This document shows, piece after piece, positions 2,370 to 24,933 of a stretch of DNA of 64,000 nt; within the stretch, counting starts at the first letter, position 1; every line of letters starts with the position of its first letter. This DNA is from Paenibacillus hexagrammi. GTDB lineage: Bacteria; Bacillota; Bacilli; Paenibacillales; NBRC-103111. Made by a program: the position numbers and the translations under genes. The DNA lies in assembly GCF_021513275.1 (NCBI RefSeq), contig NZ_CP090978.1, forward strand, positions 2,976,001-3,040,000, read 5' to 3'. The notes beneath the pieces are model-generated. The model saw only the letters and a program-made list of their open reading frames with translations. It was not told the origin of the DNA and did not search any database.

Positions 2370-2979
2370 CTAAAATGGCAAAACAACTTGATCTACTTTG
2401 TCCTTATACGAAGGATCAAAATATGCTGTAAATGTTAAACTTACCGTTAGCTTTCTGCTTGAATCTTTAGGCAGATTTCCAAAATTAACAGTATTCACAG
2501 TGATTAATCTTGGAAGCTTTTGCAACTGGGTGATGGCTTCAATAATCTCATCATAAGATCCCCCAACAGACGTTGTGACTTTAACTTCCTTTACAGATGA
2601 ATTTACGGCAGCTTTAGCGGTAGTCTTAGCGCCTTGCTGCATGTTATTGTTGTCACTGACGGAGTAGGAAATTGAAGTAAATGCTACTTTGGTATTCTTC
2701 TTAATAGATTCTAGATCCAGAGTCAATTGCTCTACATTATCCCACAGCGGAAGAGCATCCTGAACTTCTTTCATTGACGAACTTCCTTGCTGTGTATTTT
2801 CACTAATTTTCTTATTTAAAAGCTGCAATTGCTTATTTACTGTATCCATTTCAGCCTTTTGTGAACTTATCTTATCATTCGAAGGCGCAAGTAAAAGATA
2901 GTAAAATGCAAACAAAACAAGAAATAGGATTACTACACTAAGGGAGGATGAGCGTCTGTGAATTATTATTTTTTGACAT
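2370..2979 (-). CDS. pilO: Type IV pilus alignment protein PilO-like
   Basis: Bitopic inner-membrane protein expected to pair with PilN in the alignment subcomplex of type IV pili. Seen: short basic N-terminus, one membrane span (VVILFLVLFAFYYLLLA), a coiled-coil stretch (NDKISSQKAEMDTVNKQL), then a ferredoxin-like periplasmic-type domain ending FTAYFDP. ATG at 2979 has a very good GGGGGAGGAATTGG site. One A too many in the A6 run (plus-strand T at 2969-2974) breaks the frame right after the start; with five A the protein is 202 residues beginning MSKIIIHRR. The same correction ends the upstream pilN frame at 2966, supporting the call. Confidence 0.75.
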
Positions 2980-4533
2980 CCAATTCCTCCCCCTTCCTTT
3001 ACCTCTGCTTGCTTCTTGCTATTTGTATCATTCGCGGCTTCCTCTTTTTTGAATAGAATGGAGTAAGTAGCCAGATATCTCTTGTCCATGGAAATTGATG
3101 CTGTAGAATCTGAGCTTGTATTATTCGTGCCCGTTTCTGTGATAGATTGCATCATCGCATTCTCTCCAAAGGGAGCCTTCGCAGAATCATATAGGTACCT
3201 AGCTGCATCATTCAATTCTGAGGAATATGACCGTTAGTGAAATTTGACTATCAGCAGAATAAGCTAATGTATTTAACTGAGCATCGACCGGGAGTGGTTT
3301 TTTCAAGTCATTAATGATTTGCACCACATCTTTTTGACTGGCTCGCATTGCTTGAATAAACGTCCCAGGATCCGAAGCCTGCTTGGTAGGATTCTTGGTA
3401 AGCTTCCCTTCTGCAACTGTCTTCGCTTGATTCAATTGTGTCAGCCTTTGAGTGTTTAGTGAAATCTCAGAGCGGTTATTCATATAGGTGTATGATGTTA
3501 TTCCAATCCCCGCAACCCATATAATTAGCAGACCACCCAGCACGATAAATTTAATCTTAGTCTCTGTTTTCACAGTAGGCAGCAAATTAATACGTTGGGT
3601 TTGCTTATTTAACATGGATAGTCCTGTCGCTACCCTAAAATCATTTGCATTAAGAGCTGCTGAATCTTCCTTTGAGAACACACTAAAATCAACAGATTTT
3701 ACATCCAACTCCGTTAAGGTAAGCTGGAGCTCTTTAGCTAATTGATTCCTACCTTCGCCCGTTCCGGTTACCAGGATATTAGCAATTCGACTATTGCCTT
3801 CTTGAATACTGTATTGATAAAAGCTAAGCATCCTCGATAACTCAGCGATAATTTCGCCGATCTGATCGCCTGTAAGCTCATTATCTTGCGTTGCACCTTG
3901 ATCAAATAACGTTATAGTTCGCATAAAAATGGGATTCCCATTTTGAAACATGTAGACTTCAATTATCGAATGATCCAAACTAATCAGCATCGTCTCGGCG
4001 AAATGCTCTTCTTGAAAGGCCGCAATGGATCTAGCCAGTGAAGTGGCAGAAATCTCAGCTGCCCGTACGTGGAGCCCTGCATCTTCAAGCACTTTCACAT
4101 AGCTAAGGATGAGTTTCTTGGGAGCAGCAAAGACTAGAACCTGTGTACTTTCGTCGTCATGACTGATTTTAATAAAATCGTAAACAGGATCTTCAAATGG
4201 TAGTCGAAGCGCTGTCTCAACTTCCAATTCCACCAGCTGACGAAGTTCGTGTGCTTTGATACTTGGAATTCTCATTTTACGGATAATGATTTGAGAAGTA
4301 GGGATAGATAGTGTTGCCGTTGCTCCTTTCAACTTCTCTTGTTTGACCCACGCTTTTAGTTGAAGGCTCAGCGACTCGGCATTAATAATTTGATCTTCTT
4401 CAATCATCCCTTCAGGTATTGGAAGATGACCATACTTTCCGATTTCCCACGATTTTTTCTTCTTTATGGTAACATAACGCACACCCGTTTGATCAATCGT
4501 GATCCCGATTCGTTTTGAGCCTAAATCGAACAT
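2966..4533 (-). CDS. pilMN: PilM-PilN fusion, type IV pilus assembly
   Basis: About 521 residues after correction. Residues ~1-310 form an actin-like PilM ATPase domain (IGITIDQTGVRYV, later ILVTGTGE). Immediately after comes the PilN signature QRINLLP, a membrane span (IKFIVLGGLLIIWVAGIGI) and a PilN periplasmic-type domain. Free PilM normally grips the INLLP tail of PilN, so the fusion hard-wires this contact; PilMN fusions are known in Clostridioides difficile. An extra base at 3222-3223 (CC for C on the minus strand) shifts the frame from SLTVIF into SELNDAARYLYD. A second shift in the pilO start region decides the stop (TAA, 2966). Fusion is read directly, without any indel between the two domains. 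Confidence 0.78.
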
Positions 4534-4550
4534 AAGTACACCACACCTTG

Positions 4551-5307
4551 CTATCTAAATAGTGATAAATACGAATCTATCATGATCGAACCATAACCAT
4601 AGGAAAGCAAGATGCCCGCAGCCAAATATGGGCCAAATGGTATCGGTTGTTTTTTTCTTCGTTATTTTTAGCAGTAATAATCCTCCGCCTACGACGGTTC
4701 CGATGAAGCATGCTATGACAAATGCTAGAACAATATGAGGCAAGCCTACAACAAAACCGCAGACAAACAGAAGCTTGGCATCTCCCATCCCCATACCACC
4801 TTTTGATATTAAAACAATAAGCACAACAATTACATAACCGGCAATAGCTCCAAGCAGGTAACTCCACCAAGCTTGTTCATGAATGATCATTCGAAAAACT
4901 AGAACAAAAGGTAAAAAAGCCAACAAAACTTTATCCGGAATTAACATGTAAAATAAATCAGATATCGTAATAATCACAAGCAAGCTTACTAACGCTAACC
5001 CAATAACGGTCTCCCAATGATTACCGAAATGTAGGTAAATCCAAAGAAAAAGTAAAGCTGAGGTTAGCTCTCCTAACGGATAAATCGGTGACACCTTTGT
5101 CTTACAATATCGACAGCGACCAAGCGAAAATAAATAACTAACGACTGGAAACAAATCCCTAGTCTTAAGTCTTGTACCACATTTCGGACACGCTGAAGGT
5201 GGATGTACGATCGATTTTTTCTCAGGCACTCTTAGTGCCACCACGTTGAAAAATGAGCCTAGAACAAGACCAAGCAGAAAAATATAAACAGAGATTAAGA
5301 TCGTCAT
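4551..5307 (-). CDS. pilD: Type 4 prepilin peptidase (A24 family)
   Basis: Membrane aspartyl protease that cleaves and N-methylates prepilins; here it serves PilA and the minor pilins of the locus. Seen: N-terminal cytosolic domain with two CxxC pairs (CPKCG...CRYCK), then about six hydrophobic spans; catalytic aspartates in ISDLFYMLIPD and GMGDAK. The C-terminus is shifted by one extra base in an A7 run (plus-strand T at 4650-4656): restoring it gives the family ending PIPFGPYLAAG and a TAG at 4551, 251 residues. It lies between pilA and pilMN, behind a terminator that should lower its expression relative to pilA. Confidence 0.88.
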
Positions 5308-5333
5308 GTGTTTGGTCTCTTTCGTTGGATTTT

Positions 5334-5361
5334 AAAAAAGGAATCGGAATGAACCGATTCC
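5334..5361 (-). terminator. Intergenic terminator after pilA
   Basis: GGAATCGG/CCGATTCC hairpin followed on the minus strand by TTTTTT, between the pilA stop and pilD. It probably acts as a partial terminator that makes pilin mRNA more abundant than pilD-pilMN-pilO. Confidence 0.8.
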
Positions 5362-5379
5362 TTTCTCCACCATAGTATT

Positions 5380-5913
5380 TTATCTGTTTACTGGTGTTAC
5401 CGCCCCTGTACCTGCCGAGATTACATCAGCACTAAATGTCCAGGTTTGTCCAGAGCCCGCTCCACCTGTACCAGTTTGAATTACAACACTGGTTAATGTA
5501 CCATTAGCATCAAAATTCACCTGTCCACCAGTAATTACATTATTAACACTAGGCATAGTAATATTATTTTGCAAATATCCTCCGGTCATGAGGCCTAAAC
5601 CATCTTCTGCATCATCAGCAGACAAAGCTGCAGTATTAGTTCCTGGTGCGTATGCCACACCTGCTGTTCCATGAATTGGAACAGTCTCGAAAACAAAATC
5701 CGCATGATTTTCAGATGTTAAAAATAACCTTGCAGCTTCAGAAATTTGACGAGCAGTAGCTATATCTGCATTATTTCTAGATCTTTGAATAATTCCATTA
5801 ATTAGAGGAACAGCAATTGCTGCAATAATTGCTAAAATTACAATAACAGCAAGTAACTCAATTAGTGTAAATCCTTTTTCATCTTTATTTATTTTTTTCA
5901 AAATCTGTTTCAT
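5380..5913 (-). CDS. pilA: Major type IV pilin
   Basis: 177-residue prepilin. The leader MKQILKKINKDEKG is followed by FTLIELL with the conserved Glu at +5 and a 22-residue hydrophobic helix (AVIVILAIIAAIAVPLIN), the signature cut by PilD. The C-terminal domain is small, Gly/Thr/Asn-rich and without cysteines, as in many Gram-positive pilins. AGGAGG lies 8 bases before the ATG. Placement right after pilC and in front of a terminator fits the main subunit. Minor pilins are at 17.6-20.5 kb. Confidence 0.92.
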   Translation of the reverse strand: MKQILKKINKDEKGFTLIELLAVIVILAIIAAIAVPLINGIIQRSRNNADIATARQISEAARLFLTSENHADFVFETVPIHGTAGVAYAPGTNTAALSADDAEDGLGLMTGGYLQNNITMPSVNNVITGGQVNFDANGTLTSVVIQTGTGGAGSGQTWTFSADVISAGTGAVTPVNR

Positions 5914-5956
5914 ATTGAATCCTCCTAGTTATTTCTAAATAATGTATTAGTAGTAA

Positions 5957-7165
5957 CTACCCAAAATTTGCGTACATTTTAAACATAGGAACCATAATTG
6001 CAGCAACTATCGTACCTATAACAGTTGCTAAAAAAACAAGCAGTAATGGTTCTAATAATGATTTCAAGCGATCTACAGTATTTTCAACATCCATTTCATA
6101 AAAGTCTGCAACTTTTTCTAACATTTGGTCAAGTGATCCTGTTTCCTCTCCGATTGCAATCATTTGAGTAACTAGCGGCGGAAACACCCATGCTTGACGC
6201 AATGGCTCTGATAGTGGATTTCCTTGACGAAGAGAATCTGCAGAATTTTTTATAAAATCACCAATTACTTTATTTCCTACTATTTCTTCAACAATATTTA
6301 ACGATTGTAATATAGGTACAGAACTAGAGTATAAAGAAGCAAGCGTTCTTGTCATCTGTGCCAAAGCACCTTTTTGCTTCAGTTTCCCAAATATAGGAAT
6401 TTTCAATTTAATGTAGTCTATCCAATAAGCTCCACGATTTGTTCTTTTGGCGCTCAGATAGAATACAACTAGTGAAATACATCCAATTACCCATAGTAAC
6501 CATTGTGATTGAATACTATTACTTAACTTCAATACTATTCTTGTTACCATAGGTAGCTCAGCATTCATTGAAGCAAAAATATTAACAAACTGAGGGACAA
6601 CTGATTTTAATAGATATACACTCGCACCTATAGCCAGCACCCCAACGACAATCGGATAAGTCATCGCTGACTTAATCTTCTCCGTCGTCACATGCTCCTT
6701 CTCAAAAAACTTCGCTAGCCGCTCCAGCGTCCCTTCCAAATCTCCTGTTTCTTCACCGGCACGAATCATGTTCGTAAACATGGGCGGGAAAATCTTCTTA
6801 TGTTCAAGGACAGATTGGGAAAATGGGACCCCTTTTGACAAATTGGAGGCAACCTGCGTTAAAGCTTTCTTTAAAGGCTTACTTTCGGTTTGCGCCGCTA
6901 GAATGTTAGTAGCTTCGACGATATTTACGCCAGCTCGTATAAGTGTTGCGAATTGTCTGCAATACACAATGAAGTGGATCGTCTTCACAGGATTTCCGAT
7001 GTAAATATCCGTCTTCAAAGCCTTGAACTGCTCTTCTTTAACAGATAGTACAACGTAGCCCTTCCTACGAAGCTCTTCAACCGCTGAAGACTTGTCCGAT
7101 GCAGCTAATCTTCCCTTTAGCGTCTTACCTGAGCTGCTTCGAACATCATATACAAAATCAGGCAT
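5957..7165 (-). CDS. pilC: Type IV pilus inner-membrane platform protein PilC
   Basis: 402 residues, usual length. Two related T2SF domains (about 65-190 and 270-390), each with the pattern FARQFATLIRAGV / MTRTLASLYSSSVP and later GEETG, three membrane spans overall. The platform couples the PilB and PilT motors to pilin addition and removal. Its ATG (7165) overlaps the pilT stop. The first half (about 6660-7165) is noticeably richer in G+C than the second half, which may mark a recombination joint or simply local variation. Confidence 0.93.
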   Translation of the reverse strand: MPDFVYDVRSSSGKTLKGRLAASDKSSAVEELRRKGYVVLSVKEEQFKALKTDIYIGNPVKTIHFIVYCRQFATLIRAGVNIVEATNILAAQTESKPLKKALTQVASNLSKGVPFSQSVLEHKKIFPPMFTNMIRAGEETGDLEGTLERLAKFFEKEHVTTEKIKSAMTYPIVVGVLAIGASVYLLKSVVPQFVNIFASMNAELPMVTRIVLKLSNSIQSQWLLWVIGCISLVVFYLSAKRTNRGAYWIDYIKLKIPIFGKLKQKGALAQMTRTLASLYSSSVPILQSLNIVEEIVGNKVIGDFIKNSADSLRQGNPLSEPLRQAWVFPPLVTQMIAIGEETGSLDQMLEKVADFYEMDVENTVDRLKSLLEPLLLVFLATVIGTIVAAIMVPMFKMYANFG

Positions 7166-8218
7166 TAGATGCCACCGCCCTCAGCCAAGTAAGCTCTTGC
7201 TGCAAGGGGATCAATGAGTCCCTGCTGCATTTGCTCCTTAATTGACATCTCTAGCGAATGCATACCGAGATTTCGTCCTGTTTGCATGATGCTTTTGATC
7301 TGATGTATTTTCTCTGAACGGATCAAATTGGCGACGGCAGGAGTATTGATCATGATTTCCGTGGCGCATGTTCTCCCCTGCCCTCCGGGCTTCGGAAACA
7401 ATCGTTGTGAAATGACACTTACAAGCACAGCTGCCAGTTGCACTCGAATCTGTCCCTGCTGATGAGCAGGAAATGCATCAATAATCCTGTCAATTGTCTG
7501 AGGTGCATCTGTTGTATGAAGTGTCGCAAACACAAGGTGTCCGGTCTCAGCTGCAGTAACTGCTGCAGAAATAGTTTCCAAATCACGCATTTCGCCAACG
7601 AGAATCACGTCAGGGTCTTGACGCAGTGCCGCTCTTAATCCATTGGAAAAGCTCTTCGTGTCACTCCCCACTTCACGTTGATCAATAATCGAGGAAGCAT
7701 GACTATGTAAGAATTCGATAGGATCTTCGAGGGTGACAATATGCTTCTTTTCTTTGCGATTAATGAAATCAATCAACGCAGCCAGGGTTGAAGATTTACC
7801 GCTGCCAGTCGGTCCTGTCACAAGTACAAGCCCCTGTGGTTTTAATGCAAGCGAACTGATGATTGACGGAAGCTGTAGCTGCTCCAGTGACGGAATTTTC
7901 GAAGGAATGGTTCGAATCGCACACCCTCACACGATTTCGCTGTCTATATGCATTAACACGATATCGCGAAATGCCTTCCAGTTCATAGGAAAAATCTAAT
8001 TCACCAGCTTGATTAAATCTCTCAATCTGATCTGCAGTTAACATTGCCTCAGCCATAGATCGAGTGTCATTTGCACTCAAAAGCTCTGTCCCAACTTGTT
8101 GTAAGCTTCCATGTACACGTAAAACTGGTGTAGAGCCAACAGAGAGATGCAAGTCAGATGCTTTGATTTCATGTGCTTTTCGAAGCAACCCTTCAATCCT
8201 CAACAACGCTTCAGTCAT
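7165..8218 (-). CDS. pilT: Type IV pilus retraction ATPase PilT (one frameshift)
   Basis: Hexameric ATPase that depolymerises pili and drives twitching. N-terminal part: KASDLHLSVGSTPVLRVHG. C-terminal part: Walker A GPTGSGKS, Asp box, Walker B-like DPDVILVGEMRD, and the AIRNLIR-like element ANLIRSEKIHQIKS with later MHSLEMS. The frame changes between about 7919 and 7942: RYRVNAYRQRNRVRV should run into AIRTIPSKIPSL. Removing one base gives 350 residues, the normal length. ATG 8218 follows an AGGAGGTAAAC site. If the indel were real, the cell would have pili it cannot retract. Confidence 0.88.
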
Positions 8219-8236
8219 CGTTTACCTCCTCTCCTC

Positions 8237-9901
8237 TTAGTGAGCGACTGTCTCTCGAATTACTTCCTGCAGGGTCGTAATCCCTTTGGTCACTTTATCA
8301 ATGCCATCATCCAAAAGCTGGATCATGCCTTGCTCCATGGCAGCTTGACGCAAATCATGTACGGAGGCTGTGTCACTAATCAATTGACGCATCCGGTCAT
8401 TGACAACAAGCACTTCATGAATGGCTACCCTGCCGCGGTAACCTGTTCGGTTACATGCTCCACAGCCCGCCCCTTTATGGAGTTTATCGGCTTCAATTCC
8501 GCGATTTTGCATGAAAATAATTTCCTGCTCGGTTGGCGAATATGCCGTCTTACATTCGTTACAAATTCTTCGAACCAGACGCTGCGCGACGACTCCAATC
8601 AGTGATGAAGCTATTAGATACGGCTCAACTCCCATATCCCGAAAACGAGTAATCGTACTCACAGAATCGTTGGTATGGAGCGTTGATAATACCATGTGCC
8701 CAGTTAGTGAAGCACGAATAGCGATTTCGGCTGTTTCCGCATCCCTGATCTCTCCGACCATCACAATATTAGGATCCTGCCGTAAAATGGAACGAAGTCC
8801 CGCCGCAAAGGTAAGCCCTATCGTTGAGTTAACATGCACTTGGTTAATGCCCTCAAGCTGGTACTCAACGGGATCTTCAATGGTGATGATATTGGCATTT
8901 TCTTGATTTAAATGATTGAGTGCGGAGTACAGTGTGGTTGTTTTTCCGCTTCCTGTTGGTCCCGTAATAAGGATAATTCCGTATGGCTGCTCAATCATTC
9001 CTTTAAACTCATCAATGTTATGACGATTAAACCCCAATTGATCGATTGGTTTGACTCCTGTTGATAAATCGAGAATTCGCAGAACGATTTTCTCACCATG
9101 TATAGTAGGAAGCGAAGAAACCCGAATATCAACATGCTTGTGATCAACCATCATCTTAATCCGACCATCTTGAGGCAGCCTGCGTTCTGCGATATTAAGC
9201 TTGGCCATAATTTTTAACCTCGCTGTAATAAAGCCTTGCATTTGCTTAGGTATGACCCTTTCATTCCGCAAATGACCATCGATCCGATACCGTATTACGA
9301 GATTCGCCTCACCAGGATCCACATGAATATCCGACACACGCAATTGCACTGCTTGCTGGATCATTTGGTTGACCAGACGAACAATCGGTGAATCTTCATC
9401 CGTAATTTCGGTTTCTTTAATGTCATCCGTGGTGGGCATATCCGTCATCATCTGACTCATGGAATCTTGTAGTCCATAGTGGCGTGCGATAGCTCTTTGA
9501 AGCTCATCTCGGCTAGATATAGCCGGTTCGATCCGAAAGCCCGTACTCATTCGCATTTCTTCGATAGCGAAATAATCCAGGGGATCCGCCATGGCTACCA
9601 TCAGCTTGCCGCCTTCTTTATGAAGAGGGATGGCTTGATAGCGTCTTGCCATGCTTTCAGGGATGATTTTTGTGATTTCAGGATCTATCTGATACTTAAA
9701 CAAGCTAACATGCGGAATGCCTAATTGAAATTCCAGCACTTCGATTAATTGCTGCTCTGTAATATATCCTTGGGTGATTAATAGATCCCCTAGCTTTTGC
9801 TTGGTCTTGCTTTGCTCCTTCAGTGCTTCTTGTAACTGATCTTCAGAAATAATTCCGCTCTCGACCAATAAATCGCCTAATCTCTTCCTTACAAGAGCCA
9901 T
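8237..9901 (-). CDS. pilB: Type IV pilus extension ATPase PilB
   Basis: 554 residues. N-terminal MshEN-type domain (KRLGDLLVESGIISEDQL and KLGDLLITQGYITEQQL, two copies, which in relatives can bind c-di-GMP), then the secretion ATPase domain with Walker A GPTGSGKT (~313), GEIRDAETAEIA Walker B region, His box, and a four-Cys zinc site (CNECK...CGACNRTGYRG, ~449-482). It energises pilin polymerisation. First gene of the operon; the next gene, pilT, starts 18 bases later. ATG at 9901 preferred over the adjoining GTG at 9904. Confidence 0.94.
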   Translation of the reverse strand: MALVRKRLGDLLVESGIISEDQLQEALKEQSKTKQKLGDLLITQGYITEQQLIEVLEFQLGIPHVSLFKYQIDPEITKIIPESMARRYQAIPLHKEGGKLMVAMADPLDYFAIEEMRMSTGFRIEPAISSRDELQRAIARHYGLQDSMSQMMTDMPTTDDIKETEITDEDSPIVRLVNQMIQQAVQLRVSDIHVDPGEANLVIRYRIDGHLRNERVIPKQMQGFITARLKIMAKLNIAERRLPQDGRIKMMVDHKHVDIRVSSLPTIHGEKIVLRILDLSTGVKPIDQLGFNRHNIDEFKGMIEQPYGIILITGPTGSGKTTTLYSALNHLNQENANIITIEDPVEYQLEGINQVHVNSTIGLTFAAGLRSILRQDPNIVMVGEIRDAETAEIAIRASLTGHMVLSTLHTNDSVSTITRFRDMGVEPYLIASSLIGVVAQRLVRRICNECKTAYSPTEQEIIFMQNRGIEADKLHKGAGCGACNRTGYRGRVAIHEVLVVNDRMRQLISDTASVHDLRQAAMEQGMIQLLDDGIDKVTKGITTLQEVIRETVAH

Positions 9902-9904
9902 CAC

Positions 9905-10284
9905 GTGTCAACTCCATCGTTTGAATCTAGCAACAATACAATAGGTAAATGTACCTACTATTCATGAGACTATATACCCGGTTTCCGTTACAATTAAGAT
10001 ATATTATACAGTTCCGGCTCCATTTTGTATATAATTTCACAGATTTGATCATCTTCGAGCTAGTCACTTTCCTAATTCGACTTTCTCAACAAGCAATTCT
10101 ATGTCGAATAGTCAAATTCCTTTTAAAAACATAACTTGATTTTATGTAAATTTCGTCAATTTCCTAACATTGTTCTAATTTTTTTTCGATATAATGTACA
10201 CAAAGTGTATATTTCACCATGCAAAAAGTAGTAAAATAGTCTTATACCAATAAGACAAGGTATTGATTAATAGGAGGAGAAAAC
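9905..10284. promoter_or_regulatory. Divergent promoter region between pilB and the giant surface protein
   Basis: 380 bases with no gene. Plus strand: a TATAAT at 10190-10195 followed at once by an inverted repeat TACAC-AAA-GTGTA (10197-10209) placed over the likely start site, hence a candidate operator. Further down the leader, GTCTTAT-ACCA-ATAAGAC (10239-10256) forms a small hairpin 28 bases before the ATG. For pilB no clear sigma-A pair could be picked. No c-di-GMP riboswitch motif was recognised. Confidence 0.45.
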
Positions 10285-13200
10285 ATGCACAATTCAAAAC
10301 AAAAAAAGATCAGTCTCATGCTGATCGTATCCTTACTGCCTCTCTGTTTGGTTTTGCCGGGATTCCCCTAGCACAGCGCTAGCCGATGCCGCCGCCACGA
10401 TGACCATCGCATTAAAATCAAAGGCCACTGATATGTATGTTACAACATCTAATGGAACCAATTCATTGAAGGCAAATGTTACTTCCGCTGGTACTAACGA
10501 GTTCTTTGATATGTATCTACAAAGCGATGGAAGATATGCAATGAAATCAAAAGCCAGCGGCAACTTTGCTGACTGCAGGCAACAGCCAGAATAGCGCGTT
10601 GGTTCCTAATAAAGATGATCTTAATGACGCTGAATTGTTTGAAATCATATATAACGGTGACGGAACTATTTCATTGAAAACCACATCTTCAAGAACGAAT
10701 GAGTCATTTTATGTTCATGTTGAATCAAATCAACTTAACAAACCGATTAAAGCGAATAGCGCAAGGACTTATGGAGATGAAGAAAAATTCTATCTGAATT
10801 TCTTTGATTTTTACGAAACCGATTAAAGTATTAGAAATCAAAGATATCGAAAAGCCTTCGAGCGGATCTGATCCAACTGATGTAACGTCAGATTTGAAGA
10901 GTTTATTTCTGAACAACAATTTCATTCAGATTGAAACCATGAGCATGAAAAAGTTTGTTTCGCTTCGTGAGGAACTTGACGGGAAATATGACGCTATCTA
11001 TTTTGGAAAGAGCTTATTTAACCCGGAACATCCTGTAGATAAGCCAAGTAATACTTCAGACCAAGCTCCACTGAATACCAGATATCTCGAGAATGATATA
11101 ACCAATCTAAAAGCTAATGAAATTACAAGCGCTTATATCAACAAAGGACTTCCTGTTATTGTGTTCAGTGACAGCAATACAGATAACATAAGTAATAATA
11201 AGCGCGGGGCTATATATCAAGGCAAGATTTCTAATGGAAATTGGGTGCAAAACAGAGGTAAACTGTATAATCTATTCAAACCGTATTACCCATCTGTCAA
11301 AGACAATGTTATCTTTGTAAATACATCCGATATAAGTTCGTTAGATTCATTTTTGTCAAAGACAAATTTGTATGTCCGAGGTAATGTTCGCCCACAGCTT
11401 ACAATGACGAATACACCTTATAATTATTCCACAAGTAGTTTAAGAAATGATCCTTTTAACGAAAGTTCTACTGCGTACAATCAACAAATTTATCATTCTG
11501 GAGATACGCTTAATTTTGATTTTAAAGTTACCAATGTAAAGAATATTGACCAACGCAACCTAGTAGCAAATCTATACATTGGTAAAGATAGCGTGCTTGC
11601 CTATGATGCAACTCAACTCGTAGATTCCGTACCAGTGAAATCATTAACAAATAACAGACTTAAGTTCACGCTGCCACATGGATACTCTGGTCTTTATTAT
11701 TATAAAATCGAGTTAGTTGACCAAACGAGTGTAGGAAAATTAAAGGATATTTATACCGGCGTATTTCGACTTCAGGATCAAGCTCCTGTAATTAAGGTCC
11801 TTCAGGTCATCCCGAAGAGTCAAAAGAGCCAACAAACAAGTAGCTTATTGAAGTCTTCTAACCTTAATCAAAGCTATTTAAAAACGAAGGACTATGACAT
11901 CCAAATTACTGTAACGGATTTTGAGACTTTCAATCAGACTGGCTATCAAACTTTGAATAGTATCTATGACATGTTGATCTTCGGATTTAATGATGACTAT
12001 AACAAAACTTCTCGGGACTTCGGTGTAGAAGCCGCCCAAGCGATTGAGCAATTTATACAAACCGGTCAGGGTGTAATGTTTACGCATGACACGATACATA
12101 ACAGTGGACCAATGTGGCTCACTTATTTCAAAGATGATACCGGACAAACAGGAGTTAACACAGAGTTTGGTAGAAATGCAAAATCGACATCTACCAAAAC
12201 CAAAAAAGTCAATGAAGGCTTGCTGACACAGTTCCCGTTCTACATTAGTGACCTTACACCAACGGTTGCAGAGACCCACAGCCAAAACTTCGGACTAGAC
12301 CTAGAAGACCCTAAAGTAGTTCCATGGTATACAATTGATAACAGCCTTCGAGACACTGATGACAGCTGGTACCATTATTACACGTATTCCAAAGGCAACG
12401 TAACGTACTCTGGTACAGGTCATTTATTTATTGACACAAGCCTTCGCAGCGGCGGAAGCTTTCCTGATTGGGAACAAAAATTATTAGTCAACACAATGTA
12501 TCGGGCATTTATTGGTTCTAATCATAAGCCAACTTTAGAAATTCTTTCTCCTGAGCCATTTTCAAGTTCAGCTAGAAACTACATCGCTTCAAGCAGCGAC
12601 ATATCCGTTAGCTACAAGGCAGATGATCTAGACTTAACTGATAAGGATGTCACAACATCTATCGCATTTAAATATAAAAACAGCAATGGCTCAGATATTA
12701 CTCAAACTGTATTGGATAATTTCAACTCACCTAAAGGTGAAACAATTAATAAAACATTCAGCAACCCATTAGCTGCCAGCGGTGGTGATCTTACTATCGT
12801 GGTTTCTACGAAAGATGCAAGTGGTGCGATGGAAGTAAAAGAAGTGGCTGTGAAGGTCTTATCCTCAACCCAATTAACACCGAATCGCAACATATCTTCC
12901 GAAAAAGTTGAGAAAAATGGTATCGTCACCTTGAGCTATTCGATTGACCCAACTGCTAGAAATTATAGCGCCGCCGTAGATGCAAATGATCTTACGATTA
13001 CAGGTCTTCACTTTAAAGAGAAGTTTCCTGCAAATCTAGATATCATTTCTATTCCATCTGGGTTTACTAGATCAGGTTCTTTATCATCAGGTTTTACTTT
13101 AGAAGGAAACTTGCAAGACATTCCTTATAAAAAAGTCGGAAATAAGTTTGTTGCAGATAGTTCAACGTTTACAATCACGGTGAGACCGACAAAGAATGGC

Positions 13201-16200
13201 GACTACTCGCTCTCTAACTCGAATTTATCATACAACGACTATACTAGCGGCCAGCAAAATGTATTATTTAGCAACAAAGTAATAACAGCCTATACGAAGC
13301 TCACGTCCCTTGCTTTGTCTAATGTAACCATCGCAAAGGGCGACAAAACTAAGCTGCTGCCAACCTACGCACCAGACGATGCAACTTATCACAATAACGA
13401 GCATTTCACTTGGTCCTCAGATGCTCCTAGCATTGTGACAGTAAATAGTAATGGAGAAATTACAGGTGTGTCTGCGGGAACTGCCAAAGTGACAGCGACA
13501 GCGAATGACGGAAGTGGACTTCGAGCTACAGCTACTGTATCTGTTATTCAACCTGGACTTAACATAACTGGACCTACCGAAGTAGCAGTTAATGCAAGCA
13601 TTCAGTTGCAAGCTGCCCTGGTAACAGCCAATGAAAAAGTCACTTCAATTCAATGGACTTCTTCGGATCCAACAATTGCATCATTTACAGACGGCAACAA
13701 AATTACAGGCGTTCTTGCTGGTTTGAACCCTGGAGAAGTGACAATCTCTTTAAGCATCCAAACTGATCAGGGTCATACTTATTCAGCAACTTACACAGTA
13801 AATGTCGTCAAACCATTAACGACTTTGAGCTTACAAGACAAGGTAATACGAGTTAACGAAACATCGGTATTGAGCCCTACGTTTGCTCCACTAGATGCGA
13901 CGAATACTAGGTTTACTTGGAATTCAAGTGATGCGAGTACTGTTACAGTTGATAGTAATGGTAACATCAAAGGTTTGAAAACAGGCCAAGCAACCATTAC
14001 AGTAAGTGCCACTGATAGCAGCGGATTGGTTGGAAAAGCTGTTGTAACAGTGAAACAGCCTACTTTCATAGTAACAGGACCCTCTTTACTAGCAGTCGGA
14101 GGATCGAACATCACCCTAGAAGGCTTATTGGACACCGCTAATGAAACGGCTACAATCGTAGATTGGAACGTTTCAGATGATGATCAGAAAAAGCCGGATT
14201 TGCTTATAACGGTGATATGAAAAGAACTCTGACAGGATTGTATCCAGGAACTGTAACTGGCACAGTGAAAGTAACAACAGACAAGGGCAACGAATATTCC
14301 AGCTCGTTCACTGTTAACGTGTATGCTCCTTTAACATCATTGGGTATCACAGACAAGAAGATTCGAGATGACGAATTGGGTACTATCATCCCTGCATTCG
14401 CTCCAACCTTTGCAAGCAATACACAGTTCAATTGGAGCTCTACGAATCGCAATGTAGTGGATATTGATTCAAACGGAAAAATCATTAAGCTTAGTCCAGG
14501 TACTTCTTCCATTACTATTGTTTCAACAGATGGTACAAATTTAACAAGTACTGCAAATTACACGGTTATTCATCCGAATGTCACAGTAAATGGTTCTACA
14601 TCAGCTAACATAAACATGCCATTTACTCTTGAAGCTTTATTAAATACGGTAAACGAAAATCAAAAATCGGTAACTTGGAATCTTAGTGACTCTAAAATTA
14701 CAACGACACCGGACGGTGATAATAAGTTAATTGTTACTGGTAAACAGAAAGGAACGGTCACTGGTAGCGTAACGATCACAACAGATAAGGATCATTCATA
14801 CACCACTCCTATTACCGTAGCGTTCACAATCATTCCTGTAAGCTCTGTATCTATCGATGATGCAACGATTAGAACTGGTGAAACAGTCTCACTGCCAACT
14901 GTGGTCTTGCCTAATGATGCGAGCATCCCTCAACTGGAGTGGGAATCGAATCATCCAGAAATCGTGAGTGTGGACTCGAATGGAAATATTGTCGGCAATG
15001 CTGCTGGTGAAGCTATCATTACTACTAGGTCAACAGATGGTACAAACACAGTTGATACGGCAGTTGTGACAGTAGTACAACCTACCCTATCAATAAACGG
15101 TCCGACTCGATTAGACGTTGGTGGGGCAACTATTACACTATCCGCGGACCTTCGGACTACGAATGAAACTCCTGTTACCTATGAATGGGATGTACCACTC
15201 GAAGAACAAAGAAAAGCAAGCTTTATCACCGACGGTGATTCCAAGAGAATACTTGCAGGATTACTTCCAGGTACGGTAAGAGGAACTGTAAAAGTAACAA
15301 CAGACAAGGGCAATGATTATTCCAGTTCATTCACTGTAGAGGTGTATGCTCCATTAACATCATTAGGTATCACAGACAAGAAAATTCGAGATGATGAATT
15401 GGGTACGATCATTCCTGATTTCGCTCCAACCTTTGCAAGCAACACACAGTTTAATTGGAGCTCTACGAATCGCAATGTAGTGGACATGGATTCGAATGGA
15501 AAAATCATTAAGCTTAGTCCAGGTACTTCTTCCGTTACTGTATCTTCAACAGATGGTACAAATTTATCAAGCACAGCGAATTACACGGTTATTCATCCGA
15601 GTGTCACAGTAAATGGATCTACATCAGTTAACATCAACACTCCATTTACTCTAGAAGCTATATTAGATACAGTAAACGAAAATCAAAAATCGGTAACTTG
15701 GAATCTTAGCGACTCTAAAGTTACAACGACTCCGGACGGTGATAATAAGTTAATTGTTACTGGTAAACAGAAAGGAACGGTCACTGGTAGCGTAACGATC
15801 ACAACAGATAAGGATCATTCATACACCACTCCTATTACCGTAGCGCTCACAATCATTCCTGTAAGCTCTGTATCTATCGATGATGCAACGATTAGAACTG
15901 GTGAAACAGTCTCACTGCCAACTGTGGTCTTGCCTAATGATGCAAGCATCCCTCAACTGGAGTGGGAATCGAATCATCCAGAAATCGTGAGTGTGGACTC
16001 GAATGGAAATATTGTCGGCAATGCTGCTGGTGAAGCTATCATTACTGCTAGGTCAACAGATGGAAGCAACAAAACAGATACAGCTAAAGTAGTAGTCATT
16101 CAACCTAGCTTTACTATTGAGGGAGCAAAACCGCTTCAAATCGGCGGACCAGATATCACTCTAGAAGCAAAGCTTGATTCAGTGAATGAAGTGATTACAA

Positions 16201-17513
16201 CAGTGACATGGGACGTATCCGATGAAGATAAAACCGAGGCGTTATTTAGAACTGATGGTGATTCTAAACGAATCTTGACGGGGAATAAGCCAGGTGAAGT
16301 CCAAGGAACAGTGACTCTTAAAACGGATAAAAATGAATACAAAGCATCATTTGATCTAACTGTGTTCTCCTTGACTTTGCCGGATACGAGAGTTGATCTT
16401 AACAAAACTCAAACGATTGTACCTGACATTCAACCAAACGGCGCTATCGGCGACAGCTTTAAGTGGGAAATCACCCCTTCCGATAATTCGATAGCTAGCC
16501 TAGTGAGTGACGGAAAAGTTAAAGGAAATGCGGTTGGAACAGCTACAGTCAAGATTACATCTTTGCAGGATCCAGCTTGGACTGCATCGGCCAATGTTAC
16601 TGTCATTCAACCAGGTATTATCATTAATCCAGTAGATCCAACTGATCCCGAGGATCAAACAAATGGACTAAATATTGATGGCAGTTATACGGTAAACGTA
16701 GGTGAGAAAATCACATTACAAGCGAACCTTGATACTGCAAATGAGCACGCTGAAGCCGCTACATGGATGATTCCAGCAAATGATTATCTCTCTGCTAATG
16801 AGAATTCGGACAACCAAGTTGAAATTGAAGGTAAGTCTGTAGGGCAAGTCATGGGATCGGTAACCATTTCTACGGATGAGCATGACTACACCAAACAATT
16901 CACAATTAACGTAATTAATCCCGTCCAATCAGTAGATATAGTTAGAAGTGGTATCGATGAAGAAGACACCAATCAAACGATTTCCATTCTGAAGGGCAGC
17001 TCCGTAGATCTGACTGCAAAAATCACACGATCGGATGCGACCCATGATGGCTTCCACTGGTTTATTATTCAGGAAGGAACAACAGGTGAAGCGTCATTCA
17101 ATACTACGTACCAACAAGATGTAACCCTAACCACCTCAAAGAAAGGAACCATCGTCGTTCAAGTGTTGGTAGGTGGTAAATCTGATACTAGAAAAATTGA
17201 AGTTACTCAGAATTTGACAGACATCAATTTACCTGAAGGGCCTATTCGCCTAACTGTCGGAACCAACAATGACACCTATGATCTAGGTAATGAATTGCAG
17301 GTCTCCCCTGAAAACAGTTGGAAAGATGAGTTCATGTCTGATTTTGTTTGGTCATCTGATGATCAAACAATTGCCACTGTAGATCACCAAGGAAATGTTA
17401 AGGCTCATGCAAAAGGAGCTACAACAATTCGAGTCAAATACACAGATGGAGATGCTGTATTAGAAGACACTGTCAGAGTTATTGTTTCACAGCAATTTGA
17501 AAACAGATATTAA
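10285..17513 (+). CDS. Giant secreted multi-domain protein: fascin-like trefoil, DUF5057-like region, Ig-like repeats
   Basis: One locus of ~2,408 residues, read in five pieces because of four apparent indels (10365-10368 extra C; ~10569 extra C; 10808-10812 extra T; 14188-14192 missing A). Start ATG 10285 behind AGGAGGAG. Order: signal peptide ending STALA; fascin/actin-cross-linker-like trefoil (~40-170, repeats of 'ALKSKA...YVT', 'TAGNSQNSAL'); a ~570-residue region resembling DUF5057 proteins with two amidotransferase-like folds (IEQFIQTGQGVMFTHD); linker domains; then about 16 alternating Ig-like units (BIG_2 type, FTWSSDAPSIVTVNSNGEITG). No SLH, LPxTG or membrane anchor at the end. It sits opposite to and inside the pilus locus, so a pilus-associated or matrix adhesin is inferred. 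Confidence 0.72.
14235..16068 (+). repeat. Two ~810-bp near-identical direct repeats, offset 1,023 bp
   Basis: About 14235-15045 and 15258-16068 are almost the same at the DNA level, exactly 341 codons apart, each covering four Ig-like units (APLTSLGITDKKIRDDELG... to ...GEAIIT). The high identity shows a recent in-frame duplication or gene conversion; copy number could change by recombination. Confidence 0.85.
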
Positions 17514-17519
17514 TCTATG

Positions 17520-17550
17520 GTCACCCGTTTCTTACAACGGGTGACTTTTT
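17520..17550 (+). terminator. Terminator of the giant protein gene
   Basis: GTCACCCGTT / AACGGGTGAC with a six-base loop and TTTTT, 7 bases after the stop codon. Confidence 0.92.
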
Positions 17551-17556
17551 CTGCAC

Positions 17557-17594
17557 AAAAAAAGCAAGGCGCCTTTATAAGGAGTCCTCGCTTT
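17557..17594 (-). terminator. Terminator of the minor pilin operon
   Basis: On the minus strand AAGCGAGG pairs with CCTTGCTT (one G-T) and is followed by seven T, just after the 17612 stop. Back to back with the plus-strand terminator. Confidence 0.75.
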
Positions 17595-17611
17595 TCATTC
17601 TACATAGTATT

Positions 17612-19390
17612 CTATTTCACCAGTACCTTCTTCCCTCTTTTAAGATTGACTCCTTTCACCCTAGGCAGCCCGGCATTTTGATTCGTAAATATATCTTTAT
17701 TATAGTCAATAACAAATCGTGAACGAACATTAGATATGGTGGAAGCGGAGCCATCCTCAAAGGTAATTTCTTTTTCGCCAGTCTCACTATTTACGATCTC
17801 TTCTTGCGTATTTCCCCTAACTGCATTAATCATTAGATCTCCTTTTGCGAAAAAGCCGCCTCTGATCCAGAACACAGACCCTACACCATATAATTCTGCA
17901 TTTGAATCCGTATAAAAGAAAGCATCTAGTCGAGTTATATCACCATTTACTCTATCCCCATTATATCCTGTGTCTGGAATATCTTTAAATGAATTTACTC
18001 GAGTAATTAATATCTCACCTTTTGACAAAAGGACCAGCTCTTTAATTTGATTGCTATCGAAACTTGATGGTAAGCCCACAATACTGCCATCTGTGATACT
18101 TGTACTGCCTAATACAAAAATCGTTGAATCCATCGAGACATTTCCTGTAATATTCAAATTACCAGTCACTAAAATGTTTCCTCTTATTTCAATAGGATCC
18201 GAAGCGATGTTTTCTATATTTAAATCACCATTGACAATAAACCATGTACTTCGATAGTAGTGAGTGTCAAGAATTTCCGTACGGGTATTTTTGACTGTTT
18301 CGTCATAGATGAGCTGTTTATACTCACCGCTAGCACCAATATTAAAGTTTCCGTTATAAATGTATGATTTTTGCAGGTCACTTGTATTGACTACATCACT
18401 AAATGGTGGAATATCATCATCTTCCTTATCCGGAAATTGGACATCGAAGTATCTCTCGTTCTGATCTCCACTCAAATATGCAATCAACTCAGGTATACCT
18501 TGATTGAACTTATTCTTGACTTCAGTACGAATGTTCGCAGTCCCTTCAATCGCCTCCGTCACTTTATCTATAAAGGACTCATCTATATTTAATTGCACAA
18601 AATCTTCTTCAGGTTTAAATTGAACATTCTCTTTTTCCGTTCCAAGTACCGTTGGAATCGTTGTAACACCGATGTCACTAGTGGAATTAATGTCCTTATA
18701 CGCATTTTCTGTACAAACTGATTCCTCTCTGCTGTCACAGTACTTAAAGTTATCTAAAGATTGAACATATGCTTTACCATCGAGATAGGGATACCCTACG
18801 TTAACTGTGCTGTTTTTACCATCTGCACTATTGTAGATATACTCTGCTTGATTTTTGATTAATAATTTATTCCCTGCATACAAATCCCCATTCATAAAGT
18901 AAGGCGCGCCGTTAATAATTAAATTCCCTTCCGAACCCGCGGCATAATTAAGTACGTCAGGAAATGTGTTCACACTTATTTCTTGCTCTAAAGTTCGAAT
19001 GACACCGTCAATATTAGCAGTTACCTTTACAACAATTACTGGAGGATTACCTGGATTAACGGTAGCTGTCGTAACTGGATTAGCATTTCCAATTGATTGG
19101 CTGACGTTATTGTTTCGAACTATAGGTAGAATTTCTGTATTTAACTTTTCCTCTAAAAGGTCAACATTGATATCATCTTCCCCGTCCAGCTCCGCTTTAA
19201 TAATAGCCACTGATTCATTCAGAGCTTTTTCAGCCAAGTGCAAGGTCTGAACATCCTTTTGTTTTGTTTGACTTCTGATTGCTCCACCTAAGCTTGCACT
19301 TAATACAGCCATTCCTAATAATGTAAAAATAACTATCATAAATAAAACAAGCAGCAGCGCATAGCCTTTCTCTTCTTTCATTTTGTTCAA
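17612..19390 (-). CDS. PilX-type minor pilin / pilus-associated protein, large
   Basis: 592 residues. N-terminus MNKMKEEKGYALLLVLFMIVIFTLLGMAVLSAS is typical for PilX-like minor pseudopilins: short basic leader, Gly, then a hydrophobic helix without the usual E5. The rest is a long beta-rich domain with repeated 'GNL/GDLNI' steps (NGDLNIENI, GNILVTGNLNITGN), suggesting a beta-solenoid carried at the pilus tip. Two Cys are close together (KYCDSREESVC). Last gene of the block 20471-17612. Probable role: tip or priming subunit; adhesive function is inference. Confidence 0.72.
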   Translation of the reverse strand: MNKMKEEKGYALLLVLFMIVIFTLLGMAVLSASLGGAIRSQTKQKDVQTLHLAEKALNESVAIIKAELDGEDDINVDLLEEKLNTEILPIVRNNNVSQSIGNANPVTTATVNPGNPPVIVVKVTANIDGVIRTLEQEISVNTFPDVLNYAAGSEGNLIINGAPYFMNGDLYAGNKLLIKNQAEYIYNSADGKNSTVNVGYPYLDGKAYVQSLDNFKYCDSREESVCTENAYKDINSTSDIGVTTIPTVLGTEKENVQFKPEEDFVQLNIDESFIDKVTEAIEGTANIRTEVKNKFNQGIPELIAYLSGDQNERYFDVQFPDKEDDDIPPFSDVVNTSDLQKSYIYNGNFNIGASGEYKQLIYDETVKNTRTEILDTHYYRSTWFIVNGDLNIENIASDPIEIRGNILVTGNLNITGNVSMDSTIFVLGSTSITDGSIVGLPSSFDSNQIKELVLLSKGEILITRVNSFKDIPDTGYNGDRVNGDITRLDAFFYTDSNAELYGVGSVFWIRGGFFAKGDLMINAVRGNTQEEIVNSETGEKEITFEDGSASTISNVRSRFVIDYNKDIFTNQNAGLPRVKGVNLKRGKKVLVK

Positions 19391-19402
19391 GCGAAGCTCC
19401 TC

Positions 19403-19948
19403 CTAGAAACCAAATCTACTTTCCATTTGTAACTGATGCTTTTGGCCCTGCTGGTCAATTTGTTCAAGAACCAACGTAACAGCAATGAGCCCGTCTCTGC
19501 AGCTTGTTGCATTCCCGCAATCTAGTTCAATGGAAGAGCCATCAGCTAATTCCGACTTTAAGTCCCCTATTTTTCCTGAAGACTCAACTTCTGAAGAATC
19601 CATAATGTAAAGCGCATGATTCTGTATTTTGATCTGCTTGGCAGGAAGTGTGTTACCGTCTAAAGGATCTGTACGCTCCATTTCAATTCCATTCTCATTA
19701 GCAATCGATGTTACAAGATCAGGTCCATACGTATATAACTGAGTCATGATGGAAGACATTAATATATCTGCTTCATCCCTCAATGAATTCTCCACGGTTA
19801 CTTTGTTGTAAGCTTTAAATCCGAATGAAATTACACCATAGATTCCTCCAATAACAAGTGAAAGAATCGACAAAGTAGCTATTAATTCAATTAGAGAAAA
19901 ACCCTGTTCTTGTTTAAGAACATTAGCGAATCTTTTCATCCAAAACAT
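19403..19948 (-). CDS. PilW-like minor prepilin
   Basis: 181 residues with the prepilin signature QEQGFSLIELIATLSILSLVIGG, so a PilD substrate. The body is about 150 residues with a likely disulfide (DCGNATSC). Its start overlaps the end of the upstream prepilin by 26 bases, showing tight translational coupling. In other systems such PilW/GspJ-like proteins form the tip complex that primes assembly. Confidence 0.83.
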   Translation of the reverse strand: MFWMKRFANVLKQEQGFSLIELIATLSILSLVIGGIYGVISFGFKAYNKVTVENSLRDEADILMSSIMTQLYTYGPDLVTSIANENGIEMERTDPLDGNTLPAKQIKIQNHALYIMDSSEVESSGKIGDLKSELADGSSIELDCGNATSCRDGLIAVTLVLEQIDQQGQKHQLQMESRFGF

Positions 19949-20471
19949 ACCCTTCTACTACGGTTTGATTTCGCAAGCTATTATCAGCATTTAAGGTTTG
20001 AACGGAAACTTGAATAGGAATTAAATATTGGCTGACATTCGCATTATTTTTTTCTAAATTACTCTGATAAGTCACGGTAATATCATAGGTTCTTCCATTT
20101 ACTTGTGGGTGAAGAACGTTATAGATTCCTTGAAATCGATTCAATAGTGGCACCTTGTTACCATTGGTACAGCTCAAAGATTCTGCAACCAGGTTACAAT
20201 CGTTTACTGTGATGTAAGCATTTTCTCCACGATGTTCAACTTCGTTACTTGCAAAATAATCCGCTACATCGCTGAACCGCTGCTTTTCCATATAGAACAA
20301 AGCATTTCTGGCTAGGTTAACCATTACCGTTTTATTTTGATTGCTTTTATTATAAGACATTGCCTGCAAGAAGAACGCCATCATGGCCAAGCTCACCACC
20401 GACAAAATCACCGTAGCGGCCAAAACCTCAATCAGCGTAAACCCTTCTTCACCATCCAATTTCCTTCTCAT
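19923..20471 (-). CDS. PilV-like minor prepilin
   Basis: 182 residues from ATG 20471 (AGGGG eight bases upstream; an alternative ATG at 20492 adds seven residues). Leader MRRKLDGEEG then FTLIEVLAATVILSVVSLAMMAFF, a clear class III signal with E5. Two Cys in NDCNLVAESLSC. First gene of the three-gene minor pilin block, which is separated from the core pil genes by the oppositely oriented giant protein gene. Confidence 0.85.
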   Translation of the reverse strand: MRRKLDGEEGFTLIEVLAATVILSVVSLAMMAFFLQAMSYNKSNQNKTVMVNLARNALFYMEKQRFSDVADYFASNEVEHRGENAYITVNDCNLVAESLSCTNGNKVPLLNRFQGIYNVLHPQVNGRTYDITVTYQSNLEKNNANVSQYLIPIQVSVQTLNADNSLRNQTVVEGYVLDEKIR

Positions 20472-20642
20472 TAGCCAAACCCCTATATCCATAATTTTAT
20501 ATAATCCTCGAAAGCATATAGTTCAATTGTACCATATTTTCGACATTCAGAGGGTTATTCCCTTTCACAAAAATGACAATCCCCCTCCCAAAGTGTGCCA
20601 ATGTTCAAGGACAATACGAGCATCCACTACAAATGTAAACAT

Positions 20643-23767: not shown

Positions 23768-24933
23768 TTAGAAACGTGTGGTGAGTAAGTTTGTTAGAAA
23801 TACCATCCCTGCTTCTTCCAATACTTTGTTTGGAATAAGCCGGTTTGAAACCGTAGACTTCTTTTTCCGCATAAAAGCTCGCACTCTCATGCGTGTCCAT
23901 TCGTCTAGGCGTTGAAACTTTTTCTTTACGTTCCCAATCCCAAAATAGTTACCAAACCCGCGTGACACTTCATTTAGCTTCTTCATCATTTCGTTAAGGT
24001 TGTTACCTTGCTGCCTTCGGGTGATCTTGTGGACTTTCTCTTTGTACTTCTTCACTTTTGCGTCCGGCAAGATGAGATATTCTTTCCAGAAGTCAAATCC
24101 TAGAAAACGGAATCCTTCATCGAATTGCACCACTTTCGTTTTCTCTGGATGCATTCTCAGCTGAAGTTCCCCTTCTAAGATGGTTTTTGCCGTTTGGTAT
24201 GCTTCTTCTGCTCGCTCCTTTGTTTTGCAAAGAATAACTGCATCATCTGCATATCTGACCACAGCAAACCCCTTCTCCTTCATACTCCAGTCGAAATGAT
24301 TCAGATATAGATTCGCAAGTAATGGACTGATGACCCCGCCTTGTGGGGACCCGACTAACGTTTCATGGAACTGATCATCTTCCATGACTCCTGCGGTGAG
24401 CCATCCGCGAATGAGCGTCAGCACTTTACCGTCGGTTATTCGTTCACGAACCTTTTCCATCAGCAGTTCATGCGGAATTTCATCGAAAAAGGATATAATG
24501 TCGAGGTCTACCACATAGTCGTATCCGCCGCGCTTTGCTCGTCGAATCGTGTTTATTGCTTGATGCGCAGAGTATCCAGGTCGGAAGCCAAAGCTGTAGT
24601 AGTAGAAGTCTTGCTCAAAGATCGGCTCGATGATTTGACGTACAGCCTGCTGGCATACGCGATCTCGGATTGTGGGAATGCCTAACGGTCTTAACTTCCG
24701 TTTTCCTTCTCGATGAAATGTCGCCTGACAGGGTCGGGTTTGTACCGATCTTGTTGCAGTAGCCTTTGGATTTCCTTTAGGTTGATGCCTATGTTCTTCT
24801 CGAACATACCAATGCTTACCCCATCAATTCCGCCACTTCCTTGATTCTTCTTTACTGCCAGCCAGGCTTCATTCAGATTGTCCATTTGATATATTTTGTC
24901 GATCAGGGAGTAGTATCGTCGTTTCGGTTTCAT
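23768..24933 (-). CDS. ltrA: Group II intron reverse transcriptase/maturase (one frameshift)
   Basis: 388 residues after correction. Seen in order: RT0-1 region (AWLAVKKNQGSGGIDGVS), KLRPLGIPTIRDRV, YSFGFRPGYSAHQAI, DLDIISFFDEI, GSPQGGVISPLLANLYL, the catalytic YADD (VVRYADDAVIL), then a maturase X domain (LNEVSRGFGNYFGIGN). No HNH endonuclease follows, so mobility should use single-stranded DNA or forks as in class C. One base is missing at 24696-24697 (GGAAG for GGAAAG), splitting N-terminal 80 residues from the rest. AGGTGG precedes the ATG. Encoded in ribozyme domain IV. Confidence 0.9.

Follow-up and report, generated by a model that had tools for sequence, protein, structure and literature searches.

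What is encoded at this locus?

The stretch of DNA considered here, which we call the window, comprises 64,000 nucleotides of Paenibacillus hexagrammi (assembly GCF_021513275.1, contig NZ_CP090978.1, positions 2,976,001-3,040,000), and it holds a type IV pilus locus that is split by the gene for a very large secreted protein, hereafter the giant. The core genes of a type IVa-like pilus lie on the minus strand between 9.9 and 2.4 kb, in the order pilB-pilT-pilC-pilA-pilD-pilM-pilN/O, and minus-strand genes for three minor prepilins, resembling PilV, PilW and PilX, follow at 20.5-17.6 kb. Between the two groups sits the giant gene (10285-17513, plus strand, 2,409 codons), divergent from pilB and convergent with pilX. 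A preliminary description of the window had pointed to this interruption by an oppositely oriented gene, and reading of the open reading frames (ORFs) together with Pfam and TIGR profiles establishes that it is real (Table 1).

The system is recognisable as type IVa-like by its PilB, PilT, PilC, PilD, PilM, PilO and prepilins, with several of the models scoring below their curated cut-offs and PilT frame-broken; PilC is 72-82% identical to the pilC products of relatives. The MshEN model reaches 78.2 bits on PilB against a cut-off of 38, from which the pilus may be controlled by cyclic di-GMP (c-di-GMP). A promoter scan of the gap between pilB and the giant gave no signal (2 sites, against 2.3 in shuffled sequence). 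The region of the giant and minor pilins (window 10001-20000) is AT-rich, at 35-41% GC in 2-kb steps compared with about 45-50% across much of the window.

Table 1. Features of the pilus locus, with positions counted from the first nucleotide of the window
Feature	Position	Strand	Basis and remarks
PilO	2370-3215	-	PF04350 above cut-off; start out of frame with pilM/N near 3.22 kb
PilM	3208-4533	-	PF11104 above cut-off; TIGR01175 below
PilD prepilin peptidase	4555-5307	-	PF06750 and PF01478 above cut-off; frame change near 4.67 kb (3' end)
Major prepilin	5380-5913	-	GFxxxE model above cut-off
PilC platform protein	5957-7165	-	PilC and GspF models, E 1.5e-113 and 1.5e-107, both below curated cut-offs
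PilT retraction ATPase	7165-8218	-	TIGR01420 above cut-off; frame change near 7.92 kb
PilB assembly ATPase with MshEN-type c-di-GMP-binding domain	8237-9904	-	TIGR02538 E 5.8e-195, slightly below curated cut-off
Intergenic gap between divergent pilB and giant	9905-10284	.	Promoter-like matches no more frequent than in shuffled sequence
Giant: start, Sec-type signal peptide (by eye), first frame	10285-10380	+	Direct reading; intact relatives begin alike
Giant: beta-trefoil (fascin/lectin-like) piece A, second frame	10370-10591	+	Weak DUF7910, Fascin and RicinB matches, all below cut-off; aligns to intact relatives
Giant: beta-trefoil piece B, third frame	10566-10823	+	tblastn with intact relative L023; no Pfam match itself
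Giant: main piece, with N-terminal alpha/beta domain, DUF5057 (PF16480), ThuA-like domain, two Ig-type domains and first Big_2 units	10804-14220	+	
Giant: C-terminal piece, with 8 Big_2 units and terminal tail ...ENRY	14217-17513	+	Pfam, translation, tail statistics of relatives
PilX-like large minor prepilin without Glu5	17612-19390	-	Beta-solenoid before last strand in ComZ-like model
PilW-like minor prepilin, Glu5 present	19403-19948	-	N_methyl above cut-off
PilV-like minor prepilin, Glu5 present	19923-20492	-	GFxxxE and N_methyl above cut-off; TIGR02523 (pilV) below

What sort of protein is the giant?

The protein of about 2,400 residues that had been proposed matches the span of the gene, but in the assembly this span is divided among several ORFs, with the frame changing about four times (near 10.36, 10.57, 10.81 and 14.2 kb). 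Assembly indels seem likelier to us than a pseudogene, because frame changes also break pilT, pilD and pilM/N and split two genes named by eye, metH and hflX, all within window positions 2370-42240, as if the assembly were indel-prone. A pseudogene in the window strain is not favoured, given that unrelated genes are broken too and that relatives are intact: the 11 other genomes with DUF5057 in our genus sample have open frames of 1,525-2,241 residues at the giant site.

As to domains, the suspected DUF5057-like domain is indeed there, with a PF16480 match spanning residues 97-429 in the first of the long pieces (E 3.6e-23; 83.0 bits, against a Pfam cut-off of 27.9). The fascin-like trefoil that had also been named is weak in the window copy, whereas three intact relatives each have a match above cut-off, two of them to Fascin and one to RicinB_lectin_2; in other relatives (L029, L034, L035 and L046-L048) a trefoil-type N-terminal part is absent. 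In place of the roughly 16 immunoglobulin-like (Ig-like) units first counted, Pfam finds 11 Big_2 units (3 + 8), and no SLH or other anchoring domain appears among the matches of the giant pieces (E 0.05). Tandem Repeats Finder reports no array in the giant; its Ig-like region does contain a direct repeat of 300 nt, 87% identical, with copies 1,023 nt apart at 14209-14508 and 15232-15531.

Structure prediction gives a ThuA-like fold at about residues 317-572 of the model, matching 1t0b and 4pxy, and this is the most conserved part of the giant. The fold is shared with ThuA-like proteins, with the difference that in the giant it would form one domain within a secreted protein. A PDB sequence search with the core alignment returned 0 matches, and the transglutaminase-like chains at the top of the Foldseek list for the whole core model (TM 0.1-0.2, rmsd mostly about 30) were taken to be stacked sandwiches and set aside. 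Our alignments comprised the window with 15 of 20 relatives (A1), 55 of 77 usable loci (the core) and 44 of 73 loci (PilX).

How closely is the giant tied to the pilus?

The preliminary description envisaged a dedicated association with the pilus, which would be in doubt if giants were often far from pil loci, or if such loci commonly lacked them. Among 30 genomes of the genus, DUF5057 occurs in 12, and a close pilM in the same 12; another five have weak pilM matches and no others. For wider samples we used the search database's own groups, what we call the Paenibacillus order being read from the named relatives. In the order sample, DUF5057 is found in 80 of 296 genomes and a pilB of at least 73% identity in 82, with the next match at 67% and ten genomes at 63-67% identity lying outside this set of 82. 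All 80 DUF5057 genomes are among the 82, and in every one the giant is divergent from pilB, with 669-1,749 bp between the DUF5057 match and pilB. The giant is thus not a wanderer, these counts rule out a chance neighbour, and its dedication to one pilus type is, on this comparative evidence, well supported. Pil loci without a giant do exist, but only as other kinds of type IV pilus locus; where pilB is of the same kind, 80 of 82 genomes have DUF5057.

The named genomes, for which we took the best 80 of 137 confirmed loci, include Paenibacillus, Cohnella, Saccharibacillus, Fontibacillus, Anoxybacillus, Bacillus, Neobacillus, Jeotgalibacillus, Peribacillus and Alkalihalobacillus. ORFs and blastp make pil genes directly visible in the flanks of 78 of these 80 loci, and pilX is found in 74, placing the giant beside the minor pilins V-W-X as is typical of PilY1. 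A genome search finds pilX for the remaining two (L087 and L124) as well; by coordinates it adjoins the giant in L087 and lies about 12 kb off in L124, provided that contig numbers refer to identical records in both searches. Loci of the Anoxybacillus, Bacillus and Jeotgalibacillus kind keep the order giant (plus strand), pilX-W-V (minus strand), and pilB, where visible, lies past pilV on the plus strand.

Further afield, 7 of 398 genomes in a phylum sample carry DUF5057, the window's own included, and prepilin genes lie by the giant in the other six. The class to which one of these six belongs, presumably Clostridia, yields matches in 8 of 391 genomes, 7 of them above cut-off; these seven giants have prepilin genes adjacent or at most two genes away on the same strand, and the eighth match has none. 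The DUF5057 outlier, a 651-residue ORF (G727), is below cut-off and without nearby pil genes.

What stays fixed, and what is exchanged?

Complete giants end in a constant way: the final residue is aromatic in 78 of 78, and a polar residue followed by [RK][YW] closes 66 of 78, while positions further inward are diverse. This count leaves out one giant at a contig end (L121) and one with another ending, perhaps through a frame change (L120), and uses the second halves of two split giants (L063 and L089). As a control, a looser form of the pattern occurs in 3 of 1,055 other ORFs of at least 150 residues, some of them surely not genes, and two of the three are the split halves from L063 and L089. 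A home-made pattern, which picks out 57 of 80 giants, recognised 19 further Ig-like ORFs in three genomes, and none of these has the tail; 20 stretches, selected from a larger set, were covered. A separate curiosity comes from the other class, where two large secreted proteins encoded side by side (L045:6632-16368) differ in their domains but have the near-identical endings KLPSLD and KLKSLD, perhaps that lineage's docking tail.

The head is another matter. The two close-pilB genomes without DUF5057 (L240 and L241) have at the giant site, on the strand opposite pilX-W-V, a secreted protein with PF20597, the 'putative ice-binding-like adhesive domain', and these proteins end KNGDLY and NKDKY without any DUF5057 match. 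A protein search with the L241 head, in which 7,999 candidates were scored, gave 18 matches including the query's own protein; 13 are giant-type by our own reading, and all 13 end in -[RK]Y, as do none of the other five, which are unrelated PF20597 proteins. Because 7 of the 13 keep a DUF5057-type core, judged by sequence pattern, PF20597 is an added domain in some giants and the sole head in others. Comparison of these proteins shows exchange of the head while the tail was retained.

Other kinds of pilus locus extend the picture. Across 104 genomes of the family, DUF5057 is present in 15 and PilT above cut-off in 40, and by our own count there are 47 PilT places, of which 15 are near DUF5057, 12 belong to a second locus type and 20 to a third. 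The second type has pilB about 5.5 kb upstream, and one of its 12 places lies at a contig edge; in each of the other 11 (L132, L133, L138, L139 and L142-L148) two proteins are encoded between pilT and pilV-W-X, the first of about 400-450 residues, with SLH in the single example tested, and the second, directly upstream of pilV, a secreted protein of 786-1,117 residues. The latter has a VWA domain by Pfam in the two tested, the rest being their relatives, and this VWA head is nearest by sequence to 7b7p, used in comparison with the Streptococcus sanguinis adhesive pilins. With two relatives from other families added, the endings of these 13 proteins are -[RK][YW] in 5, -NR[NS] in 2 and -[NY]NN in 6, which supports a shared docking tail that is, on these comparisons, far from universal. 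Of the 20 places of the third type we covered eight (L130, L131, L134-L137, L140 and L141), and at these no large secreted protein adjoins the minor prepilins; L140 has a 984-residue ORF about 3 kb past them.

On the pilus side, the model of the window PilX predicts a long pilin helix and a beta-solenoid before the last strand, and the protein has no Glu5, which together make it ComZ-like. ComZ of Thermus thermophilus, a proposed tip pilin, has the same three features, differing in that identity is 14% and that PilX here is accompanied by a giant partner. The predicted beta-solenoid also matches ice-binding proteins and tapirins (a literature search on tapirins found no paper).

How might the giant work?

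We think it probable that the giant serves a type IVa-like pilus of Bacillota as its dedicated non-pilin tip protein, working much as PilY1 does without PilY1's defining feature. It would be exported by Sec, given the signal peptide seen by eye, and its extreme C-terminal tail, mostly -[D/N]-[R/K]-[Y/W], would dock on the minor-pilin tip complex, the likeliest partner being the large ComZ-like PilX, perhaps via strand addition. The V-W-X complex would initiate the filament and the giant would be carried at its tip as PilB extends and PilT retracts it. The Ig-like repeats would form a stalk whose length varies, and contact with a surface or ligand would fall to the N-terminal head (DUF5057 plus ThuA-like, with or without the beta-trefoil, or PF20597). 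A place at the tip and a role in adhesion fit the evidence, and the conserved tail lends indirect support to C-terminal docking on PilX. From these sequence comparisons, then, the giant is probably a swappable tip that lets the pilus grip or act on surfaces.

The obvious point of reference is PilY1/PilC of diderm type IVa pili, likewise a large secreted non-pilin encoded with pilV-W-X and bearing a variable head. Passages of two papers describe its last residues as modelled in strand addition to PilX in Myxococcus xanthus (PMC11046646) and its head as varying above a conserved C-terminal part (PMC13190605). The giant differs in its Ig-like stalk, its own conserved tail and, in the window's order, a gene divergent from pilB. 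PilY1 by homology has to be rejected: the PilY1 beta-propeller PF05567 has no match in the two long pieces of the giant (E 0.05) or in an intact giant of 1,146 residues from L125 (E 0.01), and so the giant may work like PilY1 yet is not a PilY1 as judged by the propeller. The modular adhesive pilins PilB and PilC of S. sanguinis would share with the giant tip adhesion by a monoderm type IV pilus; in those pilins the head is fused to a prepilin, and in the giant it belongs to a protein of its own that starts with a Sec-type signal. Indeed, no prepilin leader is seen by eye at the giant's N-terminus, nor is there an N_methyl match at E 0.1 in the N-terminal pieces of three intact relatives.

Several observations weigh against our interpretation. 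The giants tested have no PilY1 propeller, all seven giants of the other class are without the -[RK]Y tail, and 8 of the 13 VWA-type proteins, six of these from the window's own genus, are without a final aromatic residue. Related loci share ancestry, so that the linkage counts are not independent events, and the window's own copy is broken in the assembly. Conservation of the ThuA-like domain, moreover, is no less compatible with a fixed ligand or an enzyme than with a diversifying adhesin.

What else could it be?

This last point brings to mind a pilus-tip enzyme, whose ThuA-like domain would act on a glycan as the pilus drags it over the substrate. Enzyme action cannot be the general role, because PF20597 or VWA-type heads replace the ThuA-like head at similar sites, and we consider the idea distinctly improbable. 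A secreted cargo is somewhat easier to entertain, if still unlikely: the pilus machine would act in the manner of a type II secretion system (T2SS), releasing the giant by a piston with the C-terminal tail as export tag. Part of a review (PMC10191384) has T2SS minor pseudopilins contacting secreted effectors. Similar endings on unrelated heads, and the want of an anchoring domain among the Pfam matches, would suit such a cargo as well. Monoderms, however, lack an outer membrane that such a cargo would have to pass, the retraction ATPase PilT is still encoded in the locus, and a long Ig-like stalk would suit a tethered protein better than a diffusible one.

We give little credence to a DNA-uptake pilus in which the giant helps to capture DNA. 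The PilX model does match ComZ, a proposed tip DNA receptor, but a fold match carries no function, the solenoid resembles ice-binding proteins and tapirins too, and the heads found are lectin-like or adhesive by name. Very improbable indeed is a wall-side scaffold, away from the tip, guiding the pilus through thick peptidoglycan: monoderms do without the secretin, and a long Ig stalk could reach across their wall, but the Pfam matches hold no anchoring domain and the third locus type, at the places described above, does without any such neighbour of the minor prepilins.

What else is in the window?

Outside the pilus locus, an ORF at 23768-24514 resembles, by eye, a partial reverse transcriptase/maturase with its start cut short.

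Why does this matter?

Type IV pilus adhesion is called not well understood in a review (PMC6916266) that names monoderms as the place to learn more, and adhesive pilins have since been described in S. sanguinis. Gram-positive pil operons are described in PMC3244431, whose main text is without the word Paenibacillus. Clinical isolates of Paenibacillus thiaminolyticus have a type IV pilus cluster tied to virulence according to portions of PMC9765702; the table seen there holds no such giant, and a figure legend mentions hypothetical proteins in the cluster. The non-pilin tip effectors listed in a review (PMC10191384) are PilC1/PilC2, PulA and TcpF. Searching the paper library used here by the word DUF5057 found no paper, and among the papers listed and excerpts retrieved that link type IV pili to ThuA, to Ig-like domains, to VWA in Bacillales or to PilY1 in monoderms, nothing concerned this giant.

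More tentatively, and with rather less than even confidence, we propose a general plug-in tip for monoderm type IV pili: secreted proteins with unrelated heads (a DUF5057/ThuA-like one, trefoil present or absent, PF20597, or the VWA of the second locus type) would share a docking tail, -[D/N/K]-[R/K]-[Y/W]-COOH, read by a Glu5-less ComZ-like PilX, and lineages would swap heads to change their grip, DUF5057 being a phylum-wide Bacillota family of such non-pilin tips. An uncharacterised family bound to one kind of pilus in 80 of 80 genomes, whose head can be exchanged and whose short ending is fixed, lends itself to testing by a small deletion. If the proposal is true, DUF5057 would gain a function, and further tip proteins could be found by their tail and position.

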